From assembly GCF_017377715.1 (NCBI RefSeq), contig NZ_JAFVMF010000001.1:124001-188000 (forward strand): a DNA stretch of 64,000 bases, in the 5' to 3' direction. How positions within the stretch are numbered: the stretch's first letter is position 1; every line of letters begins with the position of its first letter. Of the stretch, positions 37,548-50,412 are shown in pieces. Origin of the DNA: Acetobacter sacchari. GTDB taxonomy: Bacteria > Pseudomonadota > Alphaproteobacteria > Acetobacterales > Acetobacteraceae. The translations under genes were made by a program, and so were the position numbers. The notes beneath the pieces were generated by a model that was not told the origin of the DNA, ran no database searches, and saw only the letters and a program-made list of their open reading frames with translations.

Positions 37548-38879
37548 TCAGATCTCGTTGCTTACGAGATAGGTTCGCACTTCGGACAGCGTCCCGTCAC
37601 GAAATTTCAGCTGAACCGAGACGCTTTTCGCTGATGCAGGACCGCGAGCCGATAGCTCGGCCCCAGGCGCCAGCGGTTGCGGCCACTGGTCCTTGCCGCC
37701 CGCGGGCAGTGGAAAAAGAAGATTGGGCGCTTCCGTATCGAATCCATACCGCACTTCTGAAAGAGCGGCCCGATTGGCGACCAGCGTCGCAAACCAGACC
37801 GTTGTCCTGTCAAACCGACGTGTCACCGTGGTCCATCGCACGTTCTGGCGCTCGAGAGCCGCGCGAGCGCGCGCCGGTGCATCTACTGCAAAGGCAGCAG
37901 GAGGGGCGATGTTGGCGACGACGGTCGTATGCCGGGCCTCGGGTGCTCTGTGCAGCAGAAATGCGCCGAAAAATGATGAGGCGACAAGAAACACGCAGGC
38001 CGCCGCAGCGGCTATCGGTATCGGCGGAAGGACGAGGCGCCGCCGGTTCTCCAGAGAGCCTGCGGTAGTCTCGGCGTCGATCAGATGGCCGCGCCCGACA
38101 TTGAGGGGCGCTGCAAGCACCGGCGGCCCTTCCACGGCGGTTCGCAGAGCGGCAAGCGCCGCCGGCGAAAGGCGGCCATGTAGAAAGCGGCGGCGGTCCC
38201 AGGCGTCGCGCAACAGCGCTTGAGCGCGGGCGCGCTCTGCGCCATCCAGTCGCCCGCCAGACGGCAGCAGCTTCGACAGGTTCTCCGACGTGGCGAGCGC
38301 AATCGCGGCGGCCTGCCCATAAGGGTGGCGCTTTGGATCTTGGAGCAAGTCCAGCCAATCTTCCGCCTCGAGACGGTCGAGGAGCGCCCTGTGCCATTCG
38401 GGCTCACGTCGTGCGGGTAGCGATGCTGGGTCGCGCCAGTCGAAACGATCCGCAAGAGCGCGAATTAGTCCGGCTGAGATCGTCAGGAATGGGTGAAGCC
38501 GCCCGAACAACGCCCATTCGAGCCCGTCGCTCCGGCCGGGCCGGGGGGGGATGTCGCGAATGGTCTGCTCCAGCAACGCCATTGCAACCTGGGCATTGCC
38601 AGTTCGGCGTAAGGAGTCAAAACTCTCGAGAAATTCCTCGATCGGCGGTTCGCCGGGGAGTTTTTCGGGCTCAGGCGTTGCGTTCGGCAGGCGCGCGAGA
38701 ACGCAGGCGGACTCGTAAGCGGCGCGCAGAAGCTGGAACGCTTCCTGATCGTCTTCCGGGTTGGTTGATCGCAAAAGCCGGGCGTAGGCTCGCTTGATCG
38801 CCCGTTCGTCCCGGGTGGCGTCAATGCCAAGGATTGACCAGCAGTCGCGTCCGCCCGGCGCGTGTCGCTCGCCAGTCAC
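37548..38879 (-). CDS. J-domain-like membrane co-chaperone with degenerate HPD
   Basis: A 443-residue protein. The N-terminal J-like domain (residues 10-58) reads [20 protein letters not shown] and then [19 protein letters not shown]. The HPD tripeptide that normally stimulates Hsp70 ATPase is replaced by NPE (residues 40-42). A helical middle follows, then one membrane helix ([20 protein letters not shown], about residue 290) and a periplasmic C-terminal domain. It resembles DjlB/DjlC, the HscC partners, in position and plan. The start overlaps the hscC stop (ATGA). How it works with HPD altered is unclear. Confidence 0.82.
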
Positions 38880-40576
38880 AGGGGTGTCGCTGCGAGAGAT
38901 TCGAGCGCCGCTTTCAGCCGGTCCGCCGCGTCGTTGATCGACTGACGATCCTGCGCCGTCAAGGCGCGCTCGAACAGGCCGATTTCGGTCGCCAGAGACG
39001 CGCGCGTCGCGCCGAGCGTTTCTTCATAGAGCCTTTCCGCCCGTGCCAGCAGCAGGCGGGTTGGCACTTCCTCGCGCGGATGAATCTTGATCTCCGCCAA
39101 CGCCTCCAGCCGCTCCTCGATTTCTTCCTGGCTGAGAAGACCTGGGTTTTCCTCGATCACCAGCCGTTCGATCGACTGGGTTTCGACGTCCTGCGCAGTT
39201 ACTTCAAGAATGCCGTTTATGTCATAGGTGAAACGAACGTCGATGGCCTGCTGCGCCGCCGGGCGGGGCTGAAGCATCATCTGAAGCTTGCCGAGAAGAA
39301 TGTTGTCCTTGACCAGGCGACTCTCGCCCTGGAACACCCTGACCTCGACACCGCCCTGATAGTCCTTGGTCGGCGTTACGCGTTGCACGCGGCTTACGGG
39401 CACGACGGTGTTGCGTTCAATGATCGGCAACAATCGTCCGGCGGCGGAACCGGAGGCGCCGGTTTCAGAGACTTCGATGCCAAGGGTGTAGGGCGCGACG
39501 TCGGTCAGCACCACGTCGTCCAGCGCGGCGTCGCGCATTTTCAGGCCCGCCTGCACCGCGGCGCCGCAGGCCACCACTTCGTCCGGGTTGATCTGTTGCA
39601 ATGGAAACTGTCCGAACATGGTGGCGGCGAGGCTGCGCACGAGCTTCATGCGTGTCGCTCCGCCCACCAGCACGACGCGGCTGAGTTCCCTCGGCTGTAT
39701 GCGGCTGTCGCGCAAGGCGCGCTCCACAGGGCGGCGCAATTGTTCCAGCAGGGGGGCGGTGATGACCGCGAATTCGTTCGCCGTCAGGGTGGCGTCGAAA
39801 TTTCCGGCGTCGCTGCGAAGAGCAATCTCAACGGAACTCTCGGTGTTGAGCCGATGACGAGCCTGCTCCACAGCTGCCCGCAGCCGTGCGATTTCTACGA
39901 TCCCCGTGGCGGACAGCGGATCGGCCCGCCAGCCGGTCTCACCCCGAAACCAGCCGATCAGCGCGTCGTCGAAGTCCTCGCCGCCGAGGAAATTGTCCCC
40001 GGCCGTTGCGCGAACCTCCATGACGCCGTCGAACAGTTCGAGAACCGAAACATCGAACGTGCCGCCGCCAAGATCGAAGACGAGGATGCTCCCGTCCTCC
40101 TCCTGCTCCTGCAGCCCGTAGGCAAGGGCGGCCGCAGTCGGTTCGTTGAGCAGGCGTTCGACCTTCAAACCTGCGAGCCTTCCTGCGGCCCGCGTTGCGT
40201 TGCGTTGCGTGTCGTTGAAATACGCGGGCACGGTGATGACTGCCTCGGTCACCCGCTCGCCCAGAAAAGCCTCCGCATCGGCTTTCAGGGAGCGGAGAAC
40301 AAAAGACGACAGTTCCTCCGGGCGGAATGTCTGTCCGCCAAGCGTCACCGTGCGTGCCGTTCCCATGATGCGCTTGAACGCCGCAGCGGTGCGGTCGGGA
40401 TGCGTCGTCAACCGTTCGCGCGCGGTCTGCCCGACCAGTATCTCACCGTTCCTGTCGACGCTGACGACCGATGGCGTAAGATGGCCGCCATGCGCCTGAG
40501 GCACGAGCACAGGCCTGCCGTCCTTCCAGACGCTGGCCAGGCTGTTGGTCGTTCCGAGGTCTATCCCGATAATCAC
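38876..40576 (-). CDS. hscC: Hsp70-family chaperone HscC
   Basis: A 566-residue Hsp70 of the short HscC type (DnaK is about 630). The ATPase domain has [60 protein letters not shown] and [14 protein letters not shown]. The substrate-binding domain has the strand region [16 protein letters not shown] and [12 protein letters not shown], and the lid is shorter than in DnaK. It is the first gene of an operon with a J-like protein and a DUF1266 protein, the E. coli hscC arrangement. HscC is a specialised chaperone, linked to sigma-70 inhibition and stress in E. coli (established for E. coli only). Confidence 0.93.
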
Positions 40577-40867
40577 CGTGTGCTCTTCAGCAATGAATCG
40601 CGAACCCGGCCGTTCGTCATGATTGTTTTGACCGGAAGAGGCTATAACTCAAGCATCCGCTGTGCACTTTGACAACCGTTCTACCCACGACTCAAACCGG
40701 TCGCTTGCAGGGCGTCCGGCGCAACATTTCGATTCGGCTGTTCGTCTGAAGAAACGCCGCCGCCACGCATCCTCATATGCCCTAACGCGGATACGGTGGC
40801 GGCAGTTGCCTGCTTGCTACGTGTGCTCAGCAACACATTTTGTGAGCAATCGTTCGTGTGTCGACGA

Positions 40868-41671
40868 TCACGCGGAGAACTGTTCGGTGATGATGCGTTC
40901 GGAGAGATTCTGCCCCGGGTCGAACAGCACCGTTGCGGATTGTTCGCGATTTTCTCGCACCGTCACCGAGACGACGTCACGCACCTCGGTAAAATCCGCC
41001 ACGGCCGCCACCGGCCGTTTTTCCGCCTCAAGCACCGTGAACGTGACCTCCGCCGTCGACGGCAGAAGCGCTCCACGCCATCGCCTGGGCCGGAAGGCGC
41101 TGATCGGCGTGAGGGGCAGCAGGTTGCCCGACAGCGGGACGATGGGGCCGTGCGCCGAAAGATTGTAGGCTGTTGAGCCCGCGGGCGTGGAGACCAGCAC
41201 GCCGTCGCAGATCAGTTCCGGCATACGTTCGCGCCCGTCGATGTCGATGCGGATCTTGGCTGCCTGCCGCGTTTGCCGGAACAGGAAGACATCGTTCAGC
41301 GCATAGGCCTCGTGCTCGGTTCCATCGGCGCAGACCGCACGCATGATGAGCGGGTGCAACATTGCAAGCTGGGCGACGGACAGACGAGCCGGAAGATCAT
41401 CTTCGTCGAACGGATTCATCAGAAAGCCGACCGACCCGCAGTTCATGCCGTAAACAGGGATGCACCGCCCGGTCGCCCGCCGCAGCGTCTCCAGCATGAA
41501 GCCGTCGCCGCCAAGGCAGATCACCGCCTCCGCATCGTCAAACGCGCAATCACCGTAGCGATCGACAAGGCGCTGATAGGCCTCCTGCGCGACAGGCGTC
41601 TGCGTCGCCAGAAAACAGAGCCGGGTCGGGGGATCTCGCAGAATAGGAAAGGCGGATGGGTCGAGGCTCAT
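40868..41671 (-). CDS. nadK: NAD kinase
   Basis: A 267-residue NAD kinase, phosphorylating NAD to NADP. The ATP-site motif [14 protein letters not shown], the [12 protein letters not shown] segment, LNDVFLFR and the [26 protein letters not shown] region (zinc/NAD binding) are present. The short length fits the alphaproteobacterial NadK form. It lies 70 bases downstream of the Tam41-like gene on the same strand; the fold is that of the diacylglycerol/lipid kinase superfamily, also seen two genes upstream. No regulatory element was noticed. Confidence 0.95.
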
Positions 41672-41741
41672 TGCGCTGAGTCTACCTGTATTGCGGCGTC
41701 GGGGCCATCGGCGTGCGGAGGACGCCCCGCACCATCGTAAT

Positions 41742-42782
41742 TCAAGCCTTGCGGCGGAAAACGCCCGCGCGCATCAGCCTGCTCACGATCCCCGGCGCGG
41801 CCAGCAACGGGTGGCGTTCGGCGAATGGCGTCAGCGTCAGCGCTACGCCAGTGTGGCGCGATATCTTCCAGACCAGATATCTGGCTCCGCCCGCAAAGGT
41901 GAAAGACGCCTTGATCAGCCGTGCGACGTTTAGCGGCCGGCCCATTCCGGCCCGGACGCGCCAGCGGCGAGACGCGGGGACGCGCATGGTCGTCGGCAGG
42001 CCGGGATCGAGCATTGCCCCGTCCGCCGAAGCAGGCAGATTTCCGGCCAGCCAGCACAGCGGCAGCAGCCTGCGGTACCGCGCTTCCGCCCCGCCAAGCA
42101 GGCTGGCCGGGCGCCGCGACGATTCCACTCGCAATTCCGCTGCGTAGGTGCGTTCGAACAGCCCGAGCCAATACTGCTCCGCATCTCCGCGTTCCGGCCC
42201 GAGTTTTGCAGCCCAAAGGGCCGCCGTGGCGACGGCCCGCACCACGCAACGCAGAATCGCGTCGGCCGCCGTCGTGTCCCTGACCCAGACAAGGCGCGCG
42301 GGTTGCGAAAAACGCGCCCAAACCGTCGTGTCGAAGGCGTCCGGGCGCGTCAGGCGGCGGAACTGCGCCAGAGACAGGATAGCGACTTTGGCGCGCATCA
42401 CGCGCCCGTCGATTGATCGCTCGTGATATTCGACGTTTGGCGGCAGTAGGGCATTTGCGATGCGCGCGACGCGTCCGCGCGGCCAGTCGCGCTGACGCTC
42501 CACGATCACGTAAAAATCCAGCACGCTGTCAGAAAGGTCAGCGTCGTCCGCCCCGGAACTGGATCCGGCAGTTGCGCCAGAGTCCTGTTCCGGGGGTGTA
42601 TTGTCGAGTAAACGGGCTGCGGACCCATAGAACAGCACGCCCAGCGGCCGCGCCGCACCGACGATCGCGGCGGCGAAACGTGCGACCGATGGCGGTGTGG
42701 GCCGCGTCAGCTCCGTCACCAACGTATCCGCAACAGCGCCAGCTGCGCTCAATGACAAGCCGGCGCGGGTGGAGTTGATCAT
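41742..42782 (-). CDS. Tam41-like nucleotidyltransferase, candidate CDP-diacylglycerol synthase
   Basis: A 346-residue protein resembling Tam41 (Mmp37), the mitochondrial CDP-diacylglycerol synthase. Shared features: the nucleotidyltransferase loop [11 protein letters not shown] (Gly 53, Ser 54), an acidic strand VLDFYVIV (Asp 89), then [20 protein letters not shown] and the [13 protein letters not shown] segment, which parallels the YFNT...KYGVI...LYxAGRxxKP pattern of Tam41. It lacks the many helices of CdsA. Tam41 proteins make CDP-diacylglycerol from CTP and phosphatidic acid. The upstream gene is a lipid kinase that could supply phosphatidic acid. Assignment is by motif reading; the second metal-binding Asp is not clear. 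Confidence 0.65.
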
Positions 42783-42913
42783 GGAAAGACCCTGCTTCTG
42801 GATTGTCGTGTTTCCCGGACCTCAAGCCCGACGATAACGCCTGTGAGTCGTCTGAGGCGGCGCAAACGCGTTAAGGGCGACGCAATTGAGAGCCGCCTTC
42901 ATAGTCCGTTCGC

Positions 42914-43894
42914 TCAGGCGTTGACGAAAGCGATGCCCGGCCCTTGTGCGAGCAGGATGCAGCCATCCGGACCTGTGTCCAGCTCTTCGCCGTCGAGCAC
43001 GAGCCGATCGCGCGTCTCGATCCGGACCGACCCTGCCTGACCGCTGCGGTAGGTTGATGATGACCGGAGCCAGCCGGGCTTCTCGCGGCGCATGAGCGAT
43101 GCGAGGGCGCGGGGCAGTTTTTTCGGATTGGCGAGAATATCGAGGTAGAAGAAACCGCCGTTCGCAGGCGTCGCGTTGTTCCAGAACGGCCATATGCCGT
43201 GGCCCAGTCGGTGCAGGGCGGAGCAGAGAAACAGAAATCGGGCGGCGTCTTCCGGCGCGTCCTCGTCGATCGCCAGCGACATCACTTCACCGTTCATCCA
43301 GCGACGCCGGGTCTCCTTTCGGAGCAACTGGCGCACTGCCCAGATCACCGTCGCCAGCACCGCCATGTCATGAGAGTAACGATTGAGGATCGCAGGCTGA
43401 TGGGCCAGTTCGATCCCGCGCGTGAAAGCTGCCAGGCCGCAGAACATTCCTGCGATCGGCGCGCGGTTCGAACCCGGCCAGGACACCAGGATGGGGCGTC
43501 GGGTCTGCGTGTTGGAGAACAGCGTGCCGTTCCGCTCGCGCTCGAGCAGCGTCGTCAGCGCGGCGACGCCGCGATTCTTCAGACCGACGTCCTCGGCGAT
43601 CAGATTCGTGTTTCCGGACGGCAGAATCGCGAGGGTGGGCAGCTCGCCGGGAGGATAGACGGCGATAATGGCGCTCATCACGTCGCTGACCGTGCCGTCG
43701 CCGCCGTTCACGACGATGCAGCGAACGCCCTGAGCGGCCAGCGCCTTGATCTCCGTGAACAGCTCGTCCCGGTCGGACGGGGTGAGGAACATCGGACCGA
43801 GCTGACGCGCAGCTTCCCGTTCGAACTCGCCGTCGCCGTCGCGCGCGTTGCGGCGGCTCCGCGGGTTATGAATCAGGGCGAGGCGTGACGTCAC
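42914..43894 (-). CDS. Diacylglycerol kinase-family lipid kinase
   Basis: A 326-residue cytosolic or membrane-associated lipid kinase. It has the DAGK/YegS catalytic motif VNGGDGTVSDVMSAI, the second motif LPSGNTNLIAEDV and a C-terminal domain with LVLDGEELDTGPDG. Such kinases phosphorylate diacylglycerol, ceramide or other lipid alcohols with ATP; the substrate cannot be read from the motifs. It is 131 bases upstream of the Tam41-like gene and divergent from the metallophosphoesterase/LptFG operon. Together they suggest a phospholipid or sphingolipid step. Confidence 0.88.
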   Translation of the reverse strand: MTSRLALIHNPRSRRNARDGDGEFEREAARQLGPMFLTPSDRDELFTEIKALAAQGVRCIVVNGGDGTVSDVMSAIIAVYPPGELPTLAILPSGNTNLIAEDVGLKNRGVAALTTLLERERNGTLFSNTQTRRPILVSWPGSNRAPIAGMFCGLAAFTRGIELAHQPAILNRYSHDMAVLATVIWAVRQLLRKETRRRWMNGEVMSLAIDEDAPEDAARFLFLCSALHRLGHGIWPFWNNATPANGGFFYLDILANPKKLPRALASLMRREKPGWLRSSSTYRSGQAGSVRIETRDRLVLDGEELDTGPDGCILLAQGPGIAFVNA

Positions 43895-44210
43895 TGGATA
43901 TTCCGCAAATCTTGCTCGTCGTGCGAGGCGTCGTGAGGGGACGTCTCAGTGTCGGGGCAGGCGGGTCTCCCCGGCTGGTCGGCTGATATAGACAGGCTGG
44001 CCGCAATTGTCACACGCCGTCCGTCCCGCTAATTCTCCGCCAGCTGTCGTGCGCTGCGGCGATACGTGCTCCGCACTTGATCCGTTGGCGAGTTTAAGGG
44101 ATCGATGGCGGTGTTGACGTCCTGCGGCCGGACGAAAACCCGGAACGTATGCTAGTGTGCGTGGACCGTGCTTCGACCCGCTATAAAAGCGCTTCGGGGA
44201 ACAGGGTCGC
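43895..44210. other. Divergent promoter region of lipid locus
   Basis: About 315 bases between the lipid kinase (minus) and the metallophosphoesterase (plus). Both starts face away from it, so it should hold both promoters. No clear operator was found. Confidence 0.4.
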
Positions 44211-45209
44211 ATGAAGAGGTCAGGAAACACCGCTTTGTCAGCCGTTCTGGCGCATCTCTCCGATCCGCATCTGCCGTTACGGACATATCCCGGCGTACGT
44301 GAATTGATGAGCAAGCGCGCCCTGAGCCTGCTGTCGTGGGGGTTGCGCAGACGGTTCGTACACCGCGAAGGACCGCTGGCCGCCGTGCTGGCGGATATCG
44401 AGGCGAGCGCGGTCGACGCTCTGGCCGTGACCGGCGACCTGACCAATCTGGGCACGGGGTCCGAATTTCGCGCCGCCGCGGCATGGCTGCGACGCTTCGA
44501 CCGACCTGTCGCGGTCATCCCGGGCAATCATGATGCGATGGCGCCGATTGCATGGAATGAGGGGCCGGGTTTGTGGGCGGATCTGGGAGGCATGGCCGAT
44601 CCCGGCGAACCAGCCGTCATGACGGTCGGCCGCGTGGCGCTGGTCGGCATCAACTCCGCTATTCCGACTCCGCCCTTTATGGCCGGAGGACGAATCGGCC
44701 GGGATCAGGCGGAGCGGCTGATCGCGACATTGCACCGTCTTCGGACCGAGGGGTTGTGCCGGATCGTGATGATCCACCATCCGCCGCGCCCCGGTCTGGT
44801 GGTTCCGCGCAAGGCTTTGTGGGATGCGGGGATGTTCGCGGAGGCGATAGCGGAGGCGGGGGCGGAGCTTGTGCTGCACGGCCACTCTCATCGCGGCACC
44901 GACAGCGTCGTGCCCGGTTCCGACACGCCGCTGATCGGCGTAACGTCGGCGTCGCATAGCCCCGGTAGGCTGGATCGGGCGGCTGGCTGGAATCGGATCG
45001 TCGTCGAGCCAGTGGAGCGTCGCGCCGATGTCTCGGGCGTCGCTGACGCGTCGCTCCCAAGCGGTCGGCCTGCGTCTTCTCCTGCCGGTTCGGGTCTCGC
45101 CGCATGGCGGATTGGCGTGGAGCGACGGAGACTTGGGACCGACGGCCAGCTTCACGTGCTGCCCCTTCTTGAATTTCTTCGCCCATGCGTCGAAAGCGGC
45201 ATATCGTGA
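44211..45209 (+). CDS. Calcineurin-type metallophosphoesterase
   Basis: A 332-residue metallophosphoesterase. All five family blocks are visible: LAHLSDPHLP (metal site 1), VTGDLTNLG, IPGNHDA, MIHHPPRP and LHGHSHRG. These bind a dinuclear metal centre that hydrolyses phosphate mono- or diesters. The substrate is unknown; LpxH-like (UDP-diacylglucosamine), lipid phosphate or cyclic nucleotide are possible. A basic, Pro-rich C-terminus of about 60 residues follows the domain. The stop overlaps the GTG of lptF (GTGA), and the operon continues through lptG and two more genes, so a lipid or envelope role is favoured. Confidence 0.9.
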   Translation: MKRSGNTALSAVLAHLSDPHLPLRTYPGVRELMSKRALSLLSWGLRRRFVHREGPLAAVLADIEASAVDALAVTGDLTNLGTGSEFRAAAAWLRRFDRPVAVIPGNHDAMAPIAWNEGPGLWADLGGMADPGEPAVMTVGRVALVGINSAIPTPPFMAGGRIGRDQAERLIATLHRLRTEGLCRIVMIHHPPRPGLVVPRKALWDAGMFAEAIAEAGAELVLHGHSHRGTDSVVPGSDTPLIGVTSASHSPGRLDRAAGWNRIVVEPVERRADVSGVADASLPSGRPASSPAGSGLAAWRIGVERRRLGTDGQLHVLPLLEFLRPCVESGIS

Positions 45210-46504
45210 CGCGCCAATCGCGTCTTTACGAGCCGCCTTTCGCGCGCGTTCCAGCGCTGATCCGTCCGAACACGCTCGATTCATACCTGCTCGCACAGGC
45301 CGTGCCTCCGTTCACGATCGCCTTGTCGGTCGTGCTTATCGCGTTATTGCTGGAGCGTTTGCTGGTCCTGCTGAACCTTCTGGCGGCGGAGGCGAGCCCG
45401 TTCTCGACGCTGCTTCGGCTGCTCGCCGATCTGTTGCCCCACTATATGGGACTGGCGCTTCCCGCTGCGCTTTGCGTGTCGATCTTCGCAGTCGTGCGCC
45501 GGATGAGCGACACGAACGAACTCGACTCCCTGATGAGCAGCGGCGTATCGCTCCTGCGTGTCTGTCGCCCGTTCGCCGTCGCGGGGGCTGCGCTCGGGGT
45601 GATGTCCATGTTGCTCTACGGCTATATCCAGCCGCACGCGCGGTACCAGTTCCGGGAGGGGTTCTATCTGGCCAGCCACGCGGGATGGGCGCCCGTGTTG
45701 CAGCCGGGCGTCTTCGCAACGCCGTCTCCCACCATTTCGTTGAGAGCCGATGGCGTCAGTCACGACGGCACGGATCTGACAGGCGTGTTCATCCGCGATA
45801 CGGGCGACGGGCGTGAGCGTGATATCGTCGCGAAGCGCGGCCACGTCCGCGTAAACACGGCGAAGGCCGAAGCCCAGATCGATCTGACGGATGGCTCCAT
45901 CCTGACCATCCCGCCAAAAGGCGAGCCGAGCGTCACATATTTCGATCACGCGACCCGCCTGATCAGTCATGCCCAGCAATCGCAGTTCCGCAATCGAGGC
46001 GATGACGAGCGTGAGTTGACGTCGGGCGAGCTGTCGCGGGAGTTGCATCGTGACGCCCGCGCCGCCAGGGGCCTCGTGGACACAGTCCCGCCGCCATCCG
46101 CTTCACAGCAACAGTTCGCTTCGGAAGACATCCCGCCGCAAAGCCTGCGGGCGGAGCTGAATTTCCGACTGGCTCGCAGCCTGTCCATTCCCTTCATCCC
46201 GATCCTCGCCGCCTCGCTGGCCGTCCTTGGCAAACGCAAGCGGGGCAGCGCCGGGCTGGCCGTCGCGGTCGTCATCCTTGTGACGTATGACCACGCGCTG
46301 CAATTCGGAGAAAGTCTGGTGGCGACGGGACGCAACTCGCCGCTCCTCGTCATCTGGGCGCCGACGCTTCTGTTCTGTGGCGCCTGCACGGCGTTGATTC
46401 TGGCGCGGGCGGACATGATCGCGCCGGCGAATCTTCGGGCGGCCCTGCAGGACGTCGCCCGGATGCGTCTATTCCGACGACGGTTGTCGGGCGAGGCTCG
46501 ATGA
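45206..46504 (+). CDS. lptF: LptF-type lipid export permease
   Basis: A 432-residue inner-membrane permease of the YjgP/YjgQ (LptF) family. In LPS export LptFG and LptB extract lipid from the inner membrane. The N-terminal helices include FTIALSVVLIALLLERLLVL and the LPHYMGLALPAALCVSIF pair; a periplasmic jellyroll follows (about residues 120-270), and three C-terminal helices close it (LSIPFIPILAASLAV). The GTG at 45206 was chosen for the GTGA overlap with the upstream gene; ATG 45185 is an alternative. No lptD, surA or pdxA follows, unlike the usual alphaproteobacterial lptFG context. Confidence 0.88.
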   Translation: MTRQSRLYEPPFARVPALIRPNTLDSYLLAQAVPPFTIALSVVLIALLLERLLVLLNLLAAEASPFSTLLRLLADLLPHYMGLALPAALCVSIFAVVRRMSDTNELDSLMSSGVSLLRVCRPFAVAGAALGVMSMLLYGYIQPHARYQFREGFYLASHAGWAPVLQPGVFATPSPTISLRADGVSHDGTDLTGVFIRDTGDGRERDIVAKRGHVRVNTAKAEAQIDLTDGSILTIPPKGEPSVTYFDHATRLISHAQQSQFRNRGDDERELTSGELSRELHRDARAARGLVDTVPPPSASQQQFASEDIPPQSLRAELNFRLARSLSIPFIPILAASLAVLGKRKRGSAGLAVAVVILVTYDHALQFGESLVATGRNSPLLVIWAPTLLFCGACTALILARADMIAPANLRAALQDVARMRLFRRRLSGEAR

Positions 46505-47640
46505 ACGCCCCGCGACCCCGGTCAGGCGGGCCGCGCCATGTGTTGCTGCGGTATCTCTCCCTTCTGCTTACGACCCGCGTGGCCATGTGCTGCGCGATTC
46601 TGATCGCGCTGATGGAACTGCTCGGGTTGCTGGAGCAGATGACGCCGATCCTGCGTCGTCATCTCGGCGTGACAGGCGTGCTGACCTACATGACGCTGCA
46701 TCTGCCGCTCATGCTCCAGACGGCGCTGCCGCTCAGCGTGCTCGTCGGAGCGTTGCTGATGTTGACCCAGATGACCGTCAGCAATGAGACGGCGATCCTG
46801 CGCGCCTCCGGGCTTTCCACTCTGGGTCTTGTCTTGCGTCTGGCGCCAGCCACGCTGGCGCTTGGCCTGTTTGGCGTGGTGGTGGAGGACCAGCTTACGC
46901 CCCGGTCCGAACTGGCTTTGGCGGCGTGGTGGAGTCACAGCGACCCGCACCCGGAAGACGGACGCTCTTTCTGGTTCGCTGTTCCCGGAGACGCATCGCG
47001 AAGTGGAGGCGTGGCCAGCGAGCTGGCGCATGTCGGGTATGTCAAGGACGTGGGTAACAGTGCGTTTGGCGTCGACTTGTACGACAGGGACGCGGAGGGC
47101 AGACTTCTTGGCATGACCCACGCCGCGCGTGCGACGTTTGGCGAGAACGGCTGGACGTTGTGGGAGGTGAAGCGTTCCGTCGTCGCGCCCGACGGCGACG
47201 CCGCGCGGGTGCAGGTGAGCACAGAGCCACAGGCGCGCTGGGGCAATACCTTCCGCGCCAGCGACATGCTGCGCCTGTCCATGGACACCGCGCCGTTGTC
47301 GTCGCTCGACATCTGGCGGGCGCTGGACGGTCGGGTGGCGACCAGTCTGGCTCCCGGTTACCTGCGCGCCGCGCTCATCGAACGTCTGCTGCGTCCGCTT
47401 GCATTGCTGGTCATGCTTTTGCTTGCGACGCCGGTGGTCTATATCCCTCCGCGTACCGGGATGCGCAGCTGGCTGCCCGTCTGGTGTCTGGGGGGCGGAC
47501 TGCTCTTCATCATCGTGCAGGGCATGTTCCGCGCGATGGGCAATGCGGGGCTTCTTCCTGCCCCGGTCGCGACCGTTCCCGGACTGCTGATCTTCACCAT
47601 GGCGGCGGGCGCCGTGCTTTTGAGGAACGAAGAGCAATGA
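46501..47640 (+). CDS. lptG: LptG-type lipid export permease
   Basis: A 379-residue partner permease to the preceding LptF, with the same plan: N-terminal helices (MCCAILIALMELLGLL, TYMTLHLPLMLQTALPLSVL), a periplasmic jellyroll (about residues 110-270) and C-terminal helices (PLALLVMLLLATPVVYIPP). The start overlaps the lptF stop, and its own stop overlaps the hydroxylase start (ATGA), so translation is coupled through the operon. LptG normally forms the lateral gate of the LPS exporter with LptF. Because of its unusual neighbours it could serve another lipid. Confidence 0.88.
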   Translation: MNAPRPRSGGPRHVLLRYLSLLLTTRVAMCCAILIALMELLGLLEQMTPILRRHLGVTGVLTYMTLHLPLMLQTALPLSVLVGALLMLTQMTVSNETAILRASGLSTLGLVLRLAPATLALGLFGVVVEDQLTPRSELALAAWWSHSDPHPEDGRSFWFAVPGDASRSGGVASELAHVGYVKDVGNSAFGVDLYDRDAEGRLLGMTHAARATFGENGWTLWEVKRSVVAPDGDAARVQVSTEPQARWGNTFRASDMLRLSMDTAPLSSLDIWRALDGRVATSLAPGYLRAALIERLLRPLALLVMLLLATPVVYIPPRTGMRSWLPVWCLGGGLLFIIVQGMFRAMGNAGLLPAPVATVPGLLIFTMAAGAVLLRNEEQ

Positions 47641-48437
47641 GCGGGACCTTGCGCAACTCGACCATCCGGTCCGGGCGCAGCTTCGATCTGGGTAAGATGA
47701 ACCTGCGGCAGCTTTGGGTCGCGTATCTCACCTACCCGACCATCCTTCTGTATTTCGCGCTTGCGCTTGCGAGTCTGATTCTGGCGGCGCGCAACTTCGC
47801 CGGGTGGGGGGCTACCTGCGTTTCGATTCTGGCGGTCGTGCTGATCTATCCGGTCGTCTGGTATCTGCTGCACCGCTATGTGCTGCATGGGCAGTATCTC
47901 TACAAATCGCGCTGGACGGCGGGGTTCTGGAAGCGGATTCACTTCGACCACCATCAGGATCCGCATCTTCTGGACGTGCTGTTCGGAGCGCCGGCGACCA
48001 CTCTTCCGACCATCGCCGTGATCACGATTCCGGTCGGCTGGATGATCGGCGGTCCCGGCGCGGCGGCCACAGCGTTCGGAACAGGGGTCGTGATCACCTG
48101 CGTCTATGAATTTTTTCACTGCATCCAGCATCTGAACTACAAGCCGAAAGCCGCGTGGATACAGCGCATGAAGGCGCGCCACGTCCTGCATCACTTCCAT
48201 GACGAAGACGGCAATTTCGGCATCACGAGCTATGTGGTCGATCGCGCGCTGGGCACCTACTACGTTGACGCCCGCGCCCGAACCCGCAGCCCGAGCGTCT
48301 TCAACCTCGGCTACAACGTGGACGAAGCCAAACGTTATCCGTGGGTCATGCGTCTGACGGGCTCCGCGCCGAAAGACCGTCCGGATGGAGCGCGTGGCGA
48401 CAGTGATGCGCCGCGCGGCGCGGGAAAACACGCGTGA
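47637..48437 (+). CDS. Fatty-acid hydroxylase/sterol-desaturase family enzyme
   Basis: A 266-residue membrane di-iron oxygenase. The histidine boxes are HRYVLHG, IHFDHHQDPH, HCIQHLNYK and RHVLHHFHDEDGNFG, which are the family ligands. Four to five helices surround them. Such enzymes hydroxylate or desaturate fatty acyl chains, sphingoid bases or sterols using O2. Start at 47637, overlapping the lptG stop by four bases. The soluble tail after residue 225 is Arg/Pro-rich. Lipid kinase, Tam41-like and LptFG neighbours suggest that a membrane or outer-membrane lipid is the substrate. Confidence 0.88.
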   Translation: MSGTLRNSTIRSGRSFDLGKMNLRQLWVAYLTYPTILLYFALALASLILAARNFAGWGATCVSILAVVLIYPVVWYLLHRYVLHGQYLYKSRWTAGFWKRIHFDHHQDPHLLDVLFGAPATTLPTIAVITIPVGWMIGGPGAAATAFGTGVVITCVYEFFHCIQHLNYKPKAAWIQRMKARHVLHHFHDEDGNFGITSYVVDRALGTYYVDARARTRSPSVFNLGYNVDEAKRYPWVMRLTGSAPKDRPDGARGDSDAPRGAGKHA

Positions 48438-48447
48438 GGCGCTTCGC

Positions 48448-49230
48448 GTGACTGCGCCGCCGCGCGCCGCAGAGCCGCTTACCGCGCTCGTTCTGGCCGG
48501 TTCACGCGCTGGCGCGGCCGACCCCATGGCTGTGGCGGCGGGGCTTTCGCACAAGGCGCTGATTCCCATCGCCGGACGGCCCATGATCTCTCACGTCATC
48601 GACACGCTTCTCGCCACGCCCGGCGTGGGTCGCGTGGTCGTGTGCATCGAGACTCCGGAGGCGTTGACCGGGGTTCTGCCGCCGGGCGTCGAGACCATGA
48701 CGGCGGCGGCCGGGCCAAGCGCTAGCGTTCTGTCTGCTCTGGCGGCTTACGGCGCGCCATTGCTGGTGACCACGGCCGACAATCCGCTGTTGCGTCCGGC
48801 CTGGGTGCAGGCGTTTCTGGACGGGGCTGCGGGCGCGGACGTTGCGGCCGGCGTCGCGGGCGAGGCGGCTGTAATGCGGGACGTGCCCGGCACTAAGCGA
48901 ACTTTTATACGCTTGTCGGACGCAGCGTTCTCCGGCTGCAATCTGTTTCTGTTCCGCACGCCGGGCGCTGCGCGCGCGGCGGCGCTGTGGCGGCGGATTG
49001 AACGCGAGCGCAAGCACCCGTTGCGGATGGGCTGGCTTCTTGGTCCCGGCGTTCTGCTGCGGGTGTTGACCAGACGCCTGACCGTGCGTGCGCTGTGCGA
49101 GCGGATCGGACGTCTGACCGGGGCGGAGGCTCGCCTTGTGTTCATTCCGGACGGTCGCGCCGCCGTGGACGTGGACAAACCCGCAGATCTCGAACTAGTG
49201 AAAGCGTTGATGGCCGCTGAGGCCGCCTGA
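48448..49230 (+). CDS. MobA-like NTP transferase
   Basis: A 260-residue soluble nucleotidyltransferase of the GT-A/MobA fold. The N-terminal nucleotide loop LTALVLAGSRAG is followed by GLSHKALIPIAGRPMI, and the metal-site TTADNPLL is in place. The C-terminal DVDKPADLELV is a common end motif of sugar- and molybdopterin-nucleotidyltransferases. The GTG at 48448 was chosen because GAGG precedes it; an ATG at 48385 would overlap the hydroxylase by 53 bases. It is the last gene of the LptFG operon and probably activates a head-group (as CDP- or similar); the substrate is unknown. Confidence 0.8.
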   Translation: MTAPPRAAEPLTALVLAGSRAGAADPMAVAAGLSHKALIPIAGRPMISHVIDTLLATPGVGRVVVCIETPEALTGVLPPGVETMTAAAGPSASVLSALAAYGAPLLVTTADNPLLRPAWVQAFLDGAAGADVAAGVAGEAAVMRDVPGTKRTFIRLSDAAFSGCNLFLFRTPGAARAAALWRRIERERKHPLRMGWLLGPGVLLRVLTRRLTVRALCERIGRLTGAEARLVFIPDGRAAVDVDKPADLELVKALMAAEAA

Positions 49231-49344: not shown

Positions 49345-50412
49345 TCAATGTGCGTGCCGGTGATGCAGGTCCGGGTAGTGAGGGTGCCGGTGGGTCATGG
49401 GCTGGTGGCGGTGCCAGTGCGTATGTGGCTCCCCCGGTGGATCGTTTGGTCCATGCGTATGCTGGTGGTGCTCGTCGTGAACGTGGCGGTGGCTATGCTC
49501 CAGCGCCTCATGGGTGTGTTCGTGGTCGTGCCGCTCGACGAGATGCAGATACAATCCGACGCCCATTAGAAGGGCCGCGGCGCCAAGCCGCCATGTCATG
49601 GGCTCGTCGAAAAGCGCAATCGCCAGAATTACGCCGATAAACGGCGCTGCGGAGAAATAGGCGCCGGTCCGCGCTGCGCCGAGATGGCGTAGCGCCAGTA
49701 CGAAGAGCACAAGGCTAACGCCGTATCCGAGGAAGCCAATCGTTCCGGCTGCCGCCAACTGGGGGAGCGGAGGCAGGCGCGCTCCGCTCGACAGCGCAAG
49801 AGACAGATTCACGGCGCCAGCGACCAGTCCTTTGAGCATGGCGATCTGCACAGGGTCAGATGAGGACAGTTTGCGGGTCAGATTGTTGTCGAGGCCCCAG
49901 GCGACGCACGCGCCGACGATGGCGAGGGCGCCCAATCCCAGACCGTCTTCTGTCCCTGCGCCGCCCGCGCCCTGCCACGAAAGAAGCGCCGCGCCGGAAA
50001 GAATTGCGAGAGCGCCGAGCAGCAGGCGTCGGTCAACGTTCTCCCGGAAGGCGAGCCAGGCGATCCCCATCGTCGCAAGACCTTCGACGTTGAGGAGCAG
50101 GGCGGCGCTGGAGGCGGGCGTATGCGAAAGCCCCAGCATCAGCAACAGTGGGCCTGCTACGCCGCCACAGAGAATGACCAGTGCGAGCCATGGCGCGTCG
50201 CGGCGCTCCAGCGGCGCCTCGGCGGGCGCATCGCCTCTGGCGCGCAGAATGAGGTGAAGCGCGGCGAGGCCGATCCCCGAGCCGAGATACAGCAATCCGG
50301 CGAGAAGCCACGGATTCACGCCGGCGCCGAGGAGCATCTTGGCGAGCGGCGTGCTGGCCCCGAAGAGTCCCGCCGAGGCGATTGCTAAAGTGGATCCCGA
50401 CTGAACTTTCAT
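49345..50412 (-). CDS. DMT-family transporter with His-rich tail
   Basis: A 355-residue EamA-type inner-membrane transporter with about ten helices (ASAGLFGASTPLAKMLL, ILCGGVAGPLLLMLGL, VACVAWGLDNNLTRKL-like central helix and an AYFSAAPFIGVILAI second-repeat motif). The C-terminal tail (about residues 290-355) carries 23 His in about 65 residues, in repeats such as HDHEHTHEA and HSHRHVHDEHHQHTHG. Such tails in cation exporters bind Zn, Ni or Co. A metal-linked export role is therefore possible (inference), although the membrane part is ordinary DMT. The gene ends 114 bases from the NTP transferase stop. Confidence 0.85.
   Translation of the reverse strand: MKVQSGSTLAIASAGLFGASTPLAKMLLGAGVNPWLLAGLLYLGSGIGLAALHLILRARGDAPAEAPLERRDAPWLALVILCGGVAGPLLLMLGLSHTPASSAALLLNVEGLATMGIAWLAFRENVDRRLLLGALAILSGAALLSWQGAGGAGTEDGLGLGALAIVGACVAWGLDNNLTRKLSSSDPVQIAMLKGLVAGAVNLSLALSSGARLPPLPQLAAAGTIGFLGYGVSLVLFVLALRHLGAARTGAYFSAAPFIGVILAIALFDEPMTWRLGAAALLMGVGLYLHLVERHDHEHTHEALEHSHRHVHDEHHQHTHGPNDPPGEPHTHWHRHQPMTHRHPHYPDLHHRHAH

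Follow-up and report, generated by a model that had tools for sequence, protein, structure and literature searches.

Does a second pair of LptF-LptG permeases, in a genome that also holds an LptF-LptG pair beside lptD, serve lipopolysaccharide (LPS) or some other lipid? The question is raised by a block of genes at 40868-49230 of a 64,000-nucleotide stretch of the Acetobacter sacchari genome (assembly GCF_017377715.1, contig NZ_JAFVMF010000001.1, positions 124,001 to 188,000), hereafter the window, in which genes for a lipid kinase and a Tam41-like nucleotidyltransferase face a run encoding a metallophosphoesterase, LptF, LptG, a hydroxylase and a MobA-like nucleotidyltransferase. All eight open reading frames (ORFs) of a preliminary description, made from the letters alone, lie where it placed them in the ORF list of the window, which confirms the gene block as real. 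That description proposed that the pair is dedicated to another lipid, for example a sphingolipid. Among the lipids it offered, the sphingolipid is the one supported, because the genome encodes serine palmitoyltransferase (SPT) and because SPT is encoded beside the Tam41-like gene in 77 of 80 related loci; the role of the pair in its transport is what we infer. Most likely, the block is one arm of a sphingolipid locus, predicted to turn ceramide into an anionic, hydroxylated phosphosphingolipid, likely passed to a dedicated LptF2-LptG2 exporter. The synthesis half of this reading is well supported, and the export half is plausible.

A gene block that travels with serine palmitoyltransferase

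The block comprises two divergent runs. Kinase, Tam41-like and NadK genes on the minus strand point away from the metallophosphoesterase, LptF, LptG, hydroxylase and MobA-like genes on the plus strand, and the two transcription units are separated by 316 bases (43895-44210), in which a consensus scan found no sigma-70-like promoter and no terminator. The coordinates agree with the overlapping junctions described earlier: 25 bases are shared by the metallophosphoesterase and LptF genes, 4 by LptF and LptG, 4 by LptG and the hydroxylase, and 53 by the hydroxylase and the MobA-like gene, the last overlap vanishing if the MobA-like protein starts at a possible GTG near 48448.

Stretches encoding a Tam41-like relative numbered 132 in a collection of named organisms, and we kept the best 80 loci, selected on the Tam41-like protein. 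SPT is the convergent neighbor of the Tam41-like gene in 77 of these 80 Acetobacteraceae loci, which come from genera including Acetobacter, Komagataeibacter, Gluconacetobacter, Gluconobacter, Novacetimonas, Bombella, Commensalibacter and Saccharibacter. The kinase and LptF2 were called in all 80, the hydroxylase and the MobA-like protein in 79 each, LptG2 in 77 and the metallophosphoesterase in 75. Neighbors that vary between relatives would have counted against a dedicated locus in the preliminary description; the exact order MobA-like, hydroxylase, LptG2, LptF2, metallophosphoesterase, kinase, Tam41-like is kept in 71 of the 80.

The window itself lacks SPT at this position, as do three of the named loci: those of Acetobacter conturbans (L187), Acetobacter sp. 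DsW_063 and A. nitrogenifigens. The last two are the window's nearest relatives by identity of the Tam41-like protein (96% and 93%, respectively), and they share with it an arrangement in which NadK and an HSP70-family gene replace the spt arm (38876-41671 in the window, around 10010-12907 in L183 and L184). Because both nearest relatives have this arrangement, the locus was most likely split by a rearrangement in the window's lineage, with which the NadK neighbor was gained. NadK (40868-41671, minus strand; Pfam NAD kinase) was earlier counted as a member of the locus, but it occurs in only two of the 80 named loci, those same two relatives, and is a bystander outside the conserved block.

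The link extends beyond the named loci. In a sample of 100 Acetobacteraceae genomes that includes A. sacchari, 26 have a Tam41-like gene, and for 22 of these the stretch fetched around it also contains SPT, the match of genome G056 being a partial one (34%). At the level of the class, 42 of 385 genomes have a match to a Tam41 profile; 20 loci were fetched, of which 14 carry SPT (in one case partial, where the contig ends) and 14 carry an LptF-LptG pair. Two gene orders recur in several of these class loci, hydroxylase-CerS-MobA-like and AasR-CerR-ACP-SPT, where ACP is acyl carrier protein.

Two observations concern the surroundings of the block. Many draft contigs stop a few kilobases past the spt arm (the right-hand ends of L188-L230), which a repeated element beside that arm, for instance a ribosomal RNA operon, would explain. 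Just downstream of the block in the window, an EamA-family transporter (49345-50412, minus strand) has a long, histidine-rich C-terminal tail, perhaps related to metals.

Co-occurrence of the parts in the family

Each part was searched in the same 100 genomes. At a threshold of E 1e-110, 30 genomes are positive for SPT; 26 have the Tam41-like gene, 30 have at least four LptF/LptG copies, and 29 have the hydroxylase, counted after two weak matches (G043, G080) were dropped from 31. SPT and four or more LptF/LptG copies occur together in 29 genomes and both are missing from 69, leaving one genome with SPT only (G021) and one with the copies only (G056). SPT and the Tam41-like gene share 25 genomes (SPT only, 5; Tam41-like only, 1; neither, 69), and SPT and the hydroxylase share 28 (SPT only, 2; hydroxylase only, 1; neither, 69). 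Every genome with the Tam41-like gene has at least four LptF/LptG copies (both, 26; copies only, 4; neither, 70), as does every genome with the hydroxylase (both, 29; copies only, 1; neither, 70). Fisher values for these pairings, with genomes treated as independent, run from 2e-24 to 2e-17 (7e-23 among them). In 25 of the 26 Tam41-like genomes LptF2 and LptG2 lie inside the block; the exception, G029, still has four LptF/LptG genes in total.

A second LptF-LptG pair with altered surface residues

The genome contains four genes that match PF03739. Two are those of the window, LptF2 (45185-46504, plus strand; E 1.3e-59, 202.5 bits) and LptG2 (46501-47640, plus strand; E 5.2e-48, 164.3 bits), both far above the gathering score of 27.9. 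The other two form a separate pair on contig C143, followed by lptD, surA and ksgA (names given by reading the ORFs), with an LptD_N model match falling within the lptD frame. The window pair is thus not the only one in the genome, and lptD and surA, correctly described as absent from the block, adjoin the other pair.

The pairs differ in their match to the LPS equivalog models of NCBIfam (TIGR04407 and TIGR04408; cut-offs of 230 bits for LptF and 240 for LptG). LptF2 and LptG2 of the window fall below these cut-offs, at 194 and 180.9 bits, and the C143 proteins exceed them, at 240.4 and 261.9 bits. The cut-off is no clean divider, because the second pair of a class relative (L137) scores 225.5 and 251.4 bits. 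In trees of 61 LptF and 62 LptG proteins, which were quick and unrooted and drew a long-branch warning from the program, the window copies fall within a group of 39, each with a Tam41-like gene adjacent or close by, and apart from 18 canonical copies (SH-aLRT support 99 for LptF and 97 for LptG). Branches of the second copies are longer than those of the canonical copies, and identity between the window proteins and their nearest relatives is 53% for LptF and 55% for LptG.

Residue counts separate the groups further. A glutamate is present at the positions of E. coli LptF 84 and LptG 88, which we take to be the coupling-helix contact with LptB, in all 39 second and all 18 canonical copies. A basic residue at the position of E. 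coli LptG 40 is found in 18/18 canonical but 1/39 second copies, and at LptG 41 in 16/18 but 1/39. With the coupling glutamate kept and these two basic residues gone, the contact with the motor is retained and part of the surface altered, a pattern that fits a still-working ABC exporter with another substrate.

LptF2-LptG2 might nonetheless export LPS or an LPS-like glycolipid as a second system, or regulate the export of LPS, and be a mere passenger beside genes directed at sphingolipids. In favor of this, LptF2 and LptG2 are built like the LPS permease (PF03739); moreover, a dedicated LptC or LptA was not found in the genome by a PF06835 search and by the weak test of the LptD_N model, and the SPT-linked pair of E. 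coli described below exceeds the LPS cut-offs. Against it stand the group that the window pair forms in the trees, its scores below cut-offs that the genome's other pair exceeds, the loss from LptG of two basic sites kept in canonical copies, and the presence of at least four LptF/LptG genes in every genome with a Tam41-like gene. We consider this explanation unlikely.

Predicted ceramide synthesis and hydroxylation

The preliminary description advised looking for SPT nearby or elsewhere, and a gene for it is present on another contig. Of the genome's 18 matches to PF00155, that of contig C93 is SPT, matching SPT 2x8u in the PDB at 5.8e-125, with the next enzyme class at 4e-75. It ends a run of flippase, a gene here called C93b, an AasR-type acyl-AMP ligase, ACP and SPT. 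The product of C93b (L027:1541-2686) has no Pfam match and a predicted GT-B-like fold, for which TagF, a wall teichoic acid enzyme that uses CDP-glycerol, leads the list of matches, ahead of UDP-GlcNAc 2-epimerases by roughly one Z unit; the C93b protein is a candidate for a head-group transferase dependent on CDP-polyol or CDP-glycerate. CerS-like proteins (X26) can be aligned almost end to end with YghO of E. coli (two examples reach E 1e-98 or better), and the A. sacchari genome has one such gene, on contig C88. Its candidate for CerR is weak.

The hydroxylase of the window (47637-48437, plus strand; 266 amino acids; FA_hydroxylase PF04116, 1.9e-20; the ORF list gives a longer frame from 47160) resembles eukaryotic ceramide hydroxylases. 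Scs7 is the sole PDB family matched by a 19-row profile of it and its relatives (4zr1 at 1.6e-10, 4zr0 at 3.2e-10; next match 0.71), and ten histidines are invariant in all 19 rows. By this likeness, the FA2H-type enzyme is predicted to be a ceramide N-acyl hydroxylase. In two genomes that lack the Tam41-like gene (G049, G086), the hydroxylase lies less than 1 kb from SPT, which suggests that its association is with ceramide and not with the phosphate head.

One may ask whether the locus product carries a phosphate head at all, or is instead a hydroxylated ceramide that is uncharged or bears a sugar, the kinase arm serving turnover. Some relatives do encode a glycosyltransferase (X13) or a GINT1_N-domain protein (X12) near the block, each found in 12 of the 35 locus records. 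A review also lists acetic acid bacteria with the prokaryotes that contain ceramide and its derivatives, ceramide glucuronide being one (PMC8268314, in the part available). Neither gene was called beside the window's block, and the kinase was called in 80 of the 80 named loci, which were chosen on the Tam41-like protein and not on the kinase. An uncharged or sugar-headed product thus strikes us as improbable, and we retain the anionic phosphosphingolipid.

The X12 protein is encoded at L082:127-1035 and in 11 other loci, and its GINT1_N domain, tested on one of them, is named after the plant glucosamine inositolphosphorylceramide transferase.

Enzymes of the predicted head-group arm

Four proteins of the block make up this predicted arm. 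The lipid kinase (42914-43894, minus strand; DAGK_cat PF00781, 1.7e-13) has a GGDG motif at residue 64 and lacks CxxxCxxC, and in its profile set 23 of 24 proteins have the former and none of 24 the latter. Presence of GGDG and absence of the CxxxCxxC of eukaryotic ceramide kinases are the marks reported for the Caulobacter ceramide kinase CpgB (PMC10331486, as far as that source was available). By these two marks the protein is likely a ceramide kinase of the CpgB kind.

The Tam41-like protein (41742-42782, minus strand; 346 amino acids) has no Pfam match at 0.001, a domain of unknown function at chance level alone at 1, and no NCBIfam match at 0.01. Its fold is confirmed by its AlphaFold model (mean predicted local distance difference test score 86.2, predicted TM-score 0.85), for which the first five PDB ranks in Foldseek are all Tam41 (7ecd at 2.6e-7, 6ig4 at 2.8e-6), with a best TM-score of 0.49 by query length and 0.61 by target. 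As the counterpart of CpgC (CC_1161) of Caulobacter, the protein is predicted to activate ceramide-1-phosphate with CTP.

That the kinase and the Tam41-like protein instead act on diacylglycerol and phosphatidic acid as a second CDP-diacylglycerol route, their proximity to SPT having some other cause, seems to us quite improbable: Tam41 itself is a CDP-diacylglycerol synthase (by the titles of the fold matches) and diacylglycerol is a further in vitro substrate of purified CpgB, but SPT accompanies the Tam41-like gene in 25 of 26 genomes and both are missing from 69 of 100, deletion of cpgB leaves phosphatidic acid unchanged (PMC10331486, for both statements on CpgB, from its available portion), and deletion of CC_1161 abolishes ceramide phosphoglycerate (PMC11324152, likewise available in part).

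The two remaining proteins of the arm we place less precisely. The metallophosphoesterase (44211-45209, plus strand; 332 amino acids; Metallophos PF00149, 2.4e-13) keeps its metal motifs, with SDPH, GDLT, GNHD and GHSH all present, and is likely the counterpart of the Caulobacter phosphoesterase CC_1158. The MobA-like protein (48385-49230, plus strand; NTP_transf_3 PF12804, 1.9e-15) is a member of the nucleotidyltransferase superfamily, its profile matching TTHA0179, of unassigned function, at 1.3e-39 and then CMP-Kdo and IspD cytidylyltransferases; by superfamily it is possibly a counterpart of CC_1153 or CpgD.

SPT-linked permease pairs outside the window's group

A search with the spt gene of A. 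sacchari led to a locus of another lineage. In E. coli A25 (NZ_CP028750; L106:10183-14730), yghO, AasR, CerR, ACP and spt face an lptG-lptF pair. Of 5426 complete E. coli genomes, 4025 contain the block from CerR to lptF at a coverage of 80% or more, and among the 5426, at the same coverage, lptG-lptF alone is found in 4060 and spt alone in 4047. Within Acetobacteraceae, three genomes (G049, G098 and G068; loci L179, L180 and L101/L178) have SPT, no Tam41-like gene and a second pair outside the window's group; in G068, of which LptG alone was included in the trees, the pair lies directly beside ACP-SPT, comparable to E. coli. The E. coli pair joins those of G049 and G098 in the LptF tree (support 98). 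The corresponding grouping in the LptG tree is not clean, because the canonical K-12 copy falls among these pairs.

These loci raise a broader reading, whose chances we put at about even. Sphingolipid makers would own an LPS-type exporter, in which a duplicated LptF-LptG pair on a shared LptB and bridge carries hydroxylated phospho-ceramide to the outer membrane. The pair would have been recruited at least twice, once with the kinase and Tam41 genes in Alphaproteobacteria and once in SPT loci such as those of E. coli and of kinase-less members of the family, its type following head-group chemistry; the reading rests on few genomes. If both kinds of pair carry sphingolipids, then pair type follows the head-group genes.

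A proposed route and the evidence that weighs against it

The assembled parts suggest the following order of events. AasR, AcpR and the SPT of contig C93 would make 3-oxo-sphinganine, and CerS and CerR would complete ceramide; genes for AasR, AcpR, SPT and CerS were found, CerR being the weak candidate noted above, and the chemistry is that of published relatives. The FA2H-type enzyme would then hydroxylate the amide-linked acyl chain, as homology to Scs7 suggests, and the kinase, by analogy with CpgB, would yield ceramide-1-phosphate. From this and CTP, the Tam41-like protein, judged by its fold, may produce a ceramide activated with a nucleotide, or some equivalent intermediate, and the MobA-like nucleotidyltransferase and the phosphoesterase may complete the polar head. 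A flippase would turn the lipid over, and LptF2-LptG2, presumably powered by a shared LptB through the coupling glutamate, would lift it from the inner membrane onto a shared LptC-LptA-LptD bridge.

Several observations weigh against this route or against parts of it. The Fisher values overstate the independence of the genomes, because carriers cluster taxonomically and the counts are uncorrected for shared descent. Single genomes break the pattern: G021 has SPT and just two LptF/LptG genes, G056 has four such genes and the Tam41-like gene with a weak, partial SPT-like match, G021 and G098 have SPT and no hydroxylase match, and five SPT genomes are without a Tam41-like gene. In G029 (L094) the Tam41-like, kinase, hydroxylase and MobA-like genes lie together with no LptF-LptG pair or phosphoesterase between them. 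Among the 20 class loci, six lack SPT and six lack LptF-LptG on the fetched stretch, some stretches ending at a contig edge.

The export step faces further points of this kind. The count covered five sites that are basic in E. coli LptG, and just two of them, 40 and 41, split the groups; at 34 and 62 neither group has a basic residue, and at 301 both do (37/38 second and 18/18 canonical copies). LptC is represented by a single PF06835 match in the genome, beside lptA-like and lptB-like ORFs, a search that a divergent LptC2 could escape. A second LptA/LptD-type gene was not found in the genome, the LptD_N model matching lptD alone, and this is a weak test because an LptA-like ORF otherwise visible escaped the model. 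The SPT-linked pair of E. coli lies outside the window's LptF group (approximately unbiased test, p 4e-8) and passes the LPS equivalog cut-offs, at 317.7 and 303.7 bits. For head-group assembly, CpgA has no match in the genome at E 0.01 with one distant query, the PF01066 protein of a class relative. Finally, we found no lipid or transport measurement for Acetobacter sacchari in the literature.

Comparison with known systems

The route by which bacterial sphingolipids reach the outer membrane was stated to be unknown in 2024 (PMC11324152; here and below, statements from this source come from the portion available to us). We found neither the block of Acetobacteraceae nor the SPT-linked pair of E. 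coli described in the open-licence literature, in which LptF2 and LptG2 were named for sphingolipids in PMC11324152 only, as far as its available portion goes; neither absence is proven.

In Gluconobacter oxydans, of the same family, the aasR-acpR-spt operon is GOX2056-2058, and the CerR and CerS genes are distant from it (PMC9386255). A. sacchari has the same spt arm, likewise with its CerR candidate and CerS gene distant. The available part of that paper covers five ceramide genes and does not mention the Tam41-kinase and LptF2-LptG2 arm; the same source records spt in the E. coli B laboratory strain BL21(DE3). Among the named loci, that of G. oxydans NBRC 14819 (L246) has the block together with SPT.

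The E. coli yghO-aasR-cerR-acpR-spt block resembles the family's loci in placing SPT directly beside a second LptF-LptG pair and differs in that no kinase, Tam41-like protein or hydroxylase is annotated in the E. coli stretch. With eukaryotic Scs7 and FA2H, the window's hydroxylase shares the hydroxylase domain and the histidine clusters, but at 266 amino acids it matches the membrane catalytic part alone. The FA2H type as such is not new in bacteria, because FA2H-like enzymes are known from myxobacteria (PMC10002949, from the part available); what the window adds is a eukaryote-type ceramide hydroxylase tied to a bacterial sphingolipid operon.

The closest parallel is the Caulobacter crescentus cluster CC_1168-CC_1152, which encodes SPT, CpgC (CDP-diacylglycerol-synthase-like), CpgB, CpgA, a phosphoesterase and two nucleotidyltransferases, and for which LptC2, LptF2, LptG2 and a flippase were proposed, without test, to move phosphosphingolipids on the basis of gene neighborhood and cofitness (PMC11324152). 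CpgD, the phosphoglycerate cytidylyltransferase, makes CDP-glycerate (PMC12275187, as far as available), and CpgA, a CDP-alcohol phosphotransferase, is required in Caulobacter for the second phosphoglycerate. The organisms in the Fig 7 legend of PMC11324152 include no Acetobacteraceae. The likenesses are the SPT/AcpR/AasR arm (here on contig C93) and flippase, a Tam41-fold protein beside the kinase as CpgC is beside CpgB, matched by family and fold, and a phosphoesterase, a nucleotidyltransferase and a second LptF-LptG pair. There are also differences. In A. sacchari, the spt arm has moved away in the window's lineage, CerS and the CerR candidate lie elsewhere, and an FA2H-type hydroxylase sits inside the permease operon, whereas the sphingolipid hydroxylase of Caulobacter is an unlinked gene of the DesA family, CC_0202 (PMC11324152). 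Because CpgA was unmatched with its single query and a second LptC was not found, we do not file the block as a CPG2 cluster. It is nevertheless the Caulobacter cluster that the window block works most like, and of which it is a variant. Our analysis adds a further family in which, across 100 genomes, a second LptF-LptG pair tracks SPT nearly one to one, together with residues that hint at altered specificity while the contact with the motor is preserved, and a pair linked to SPT in a different lineage, present in about three-quarters of the complete genomes of E. coli.

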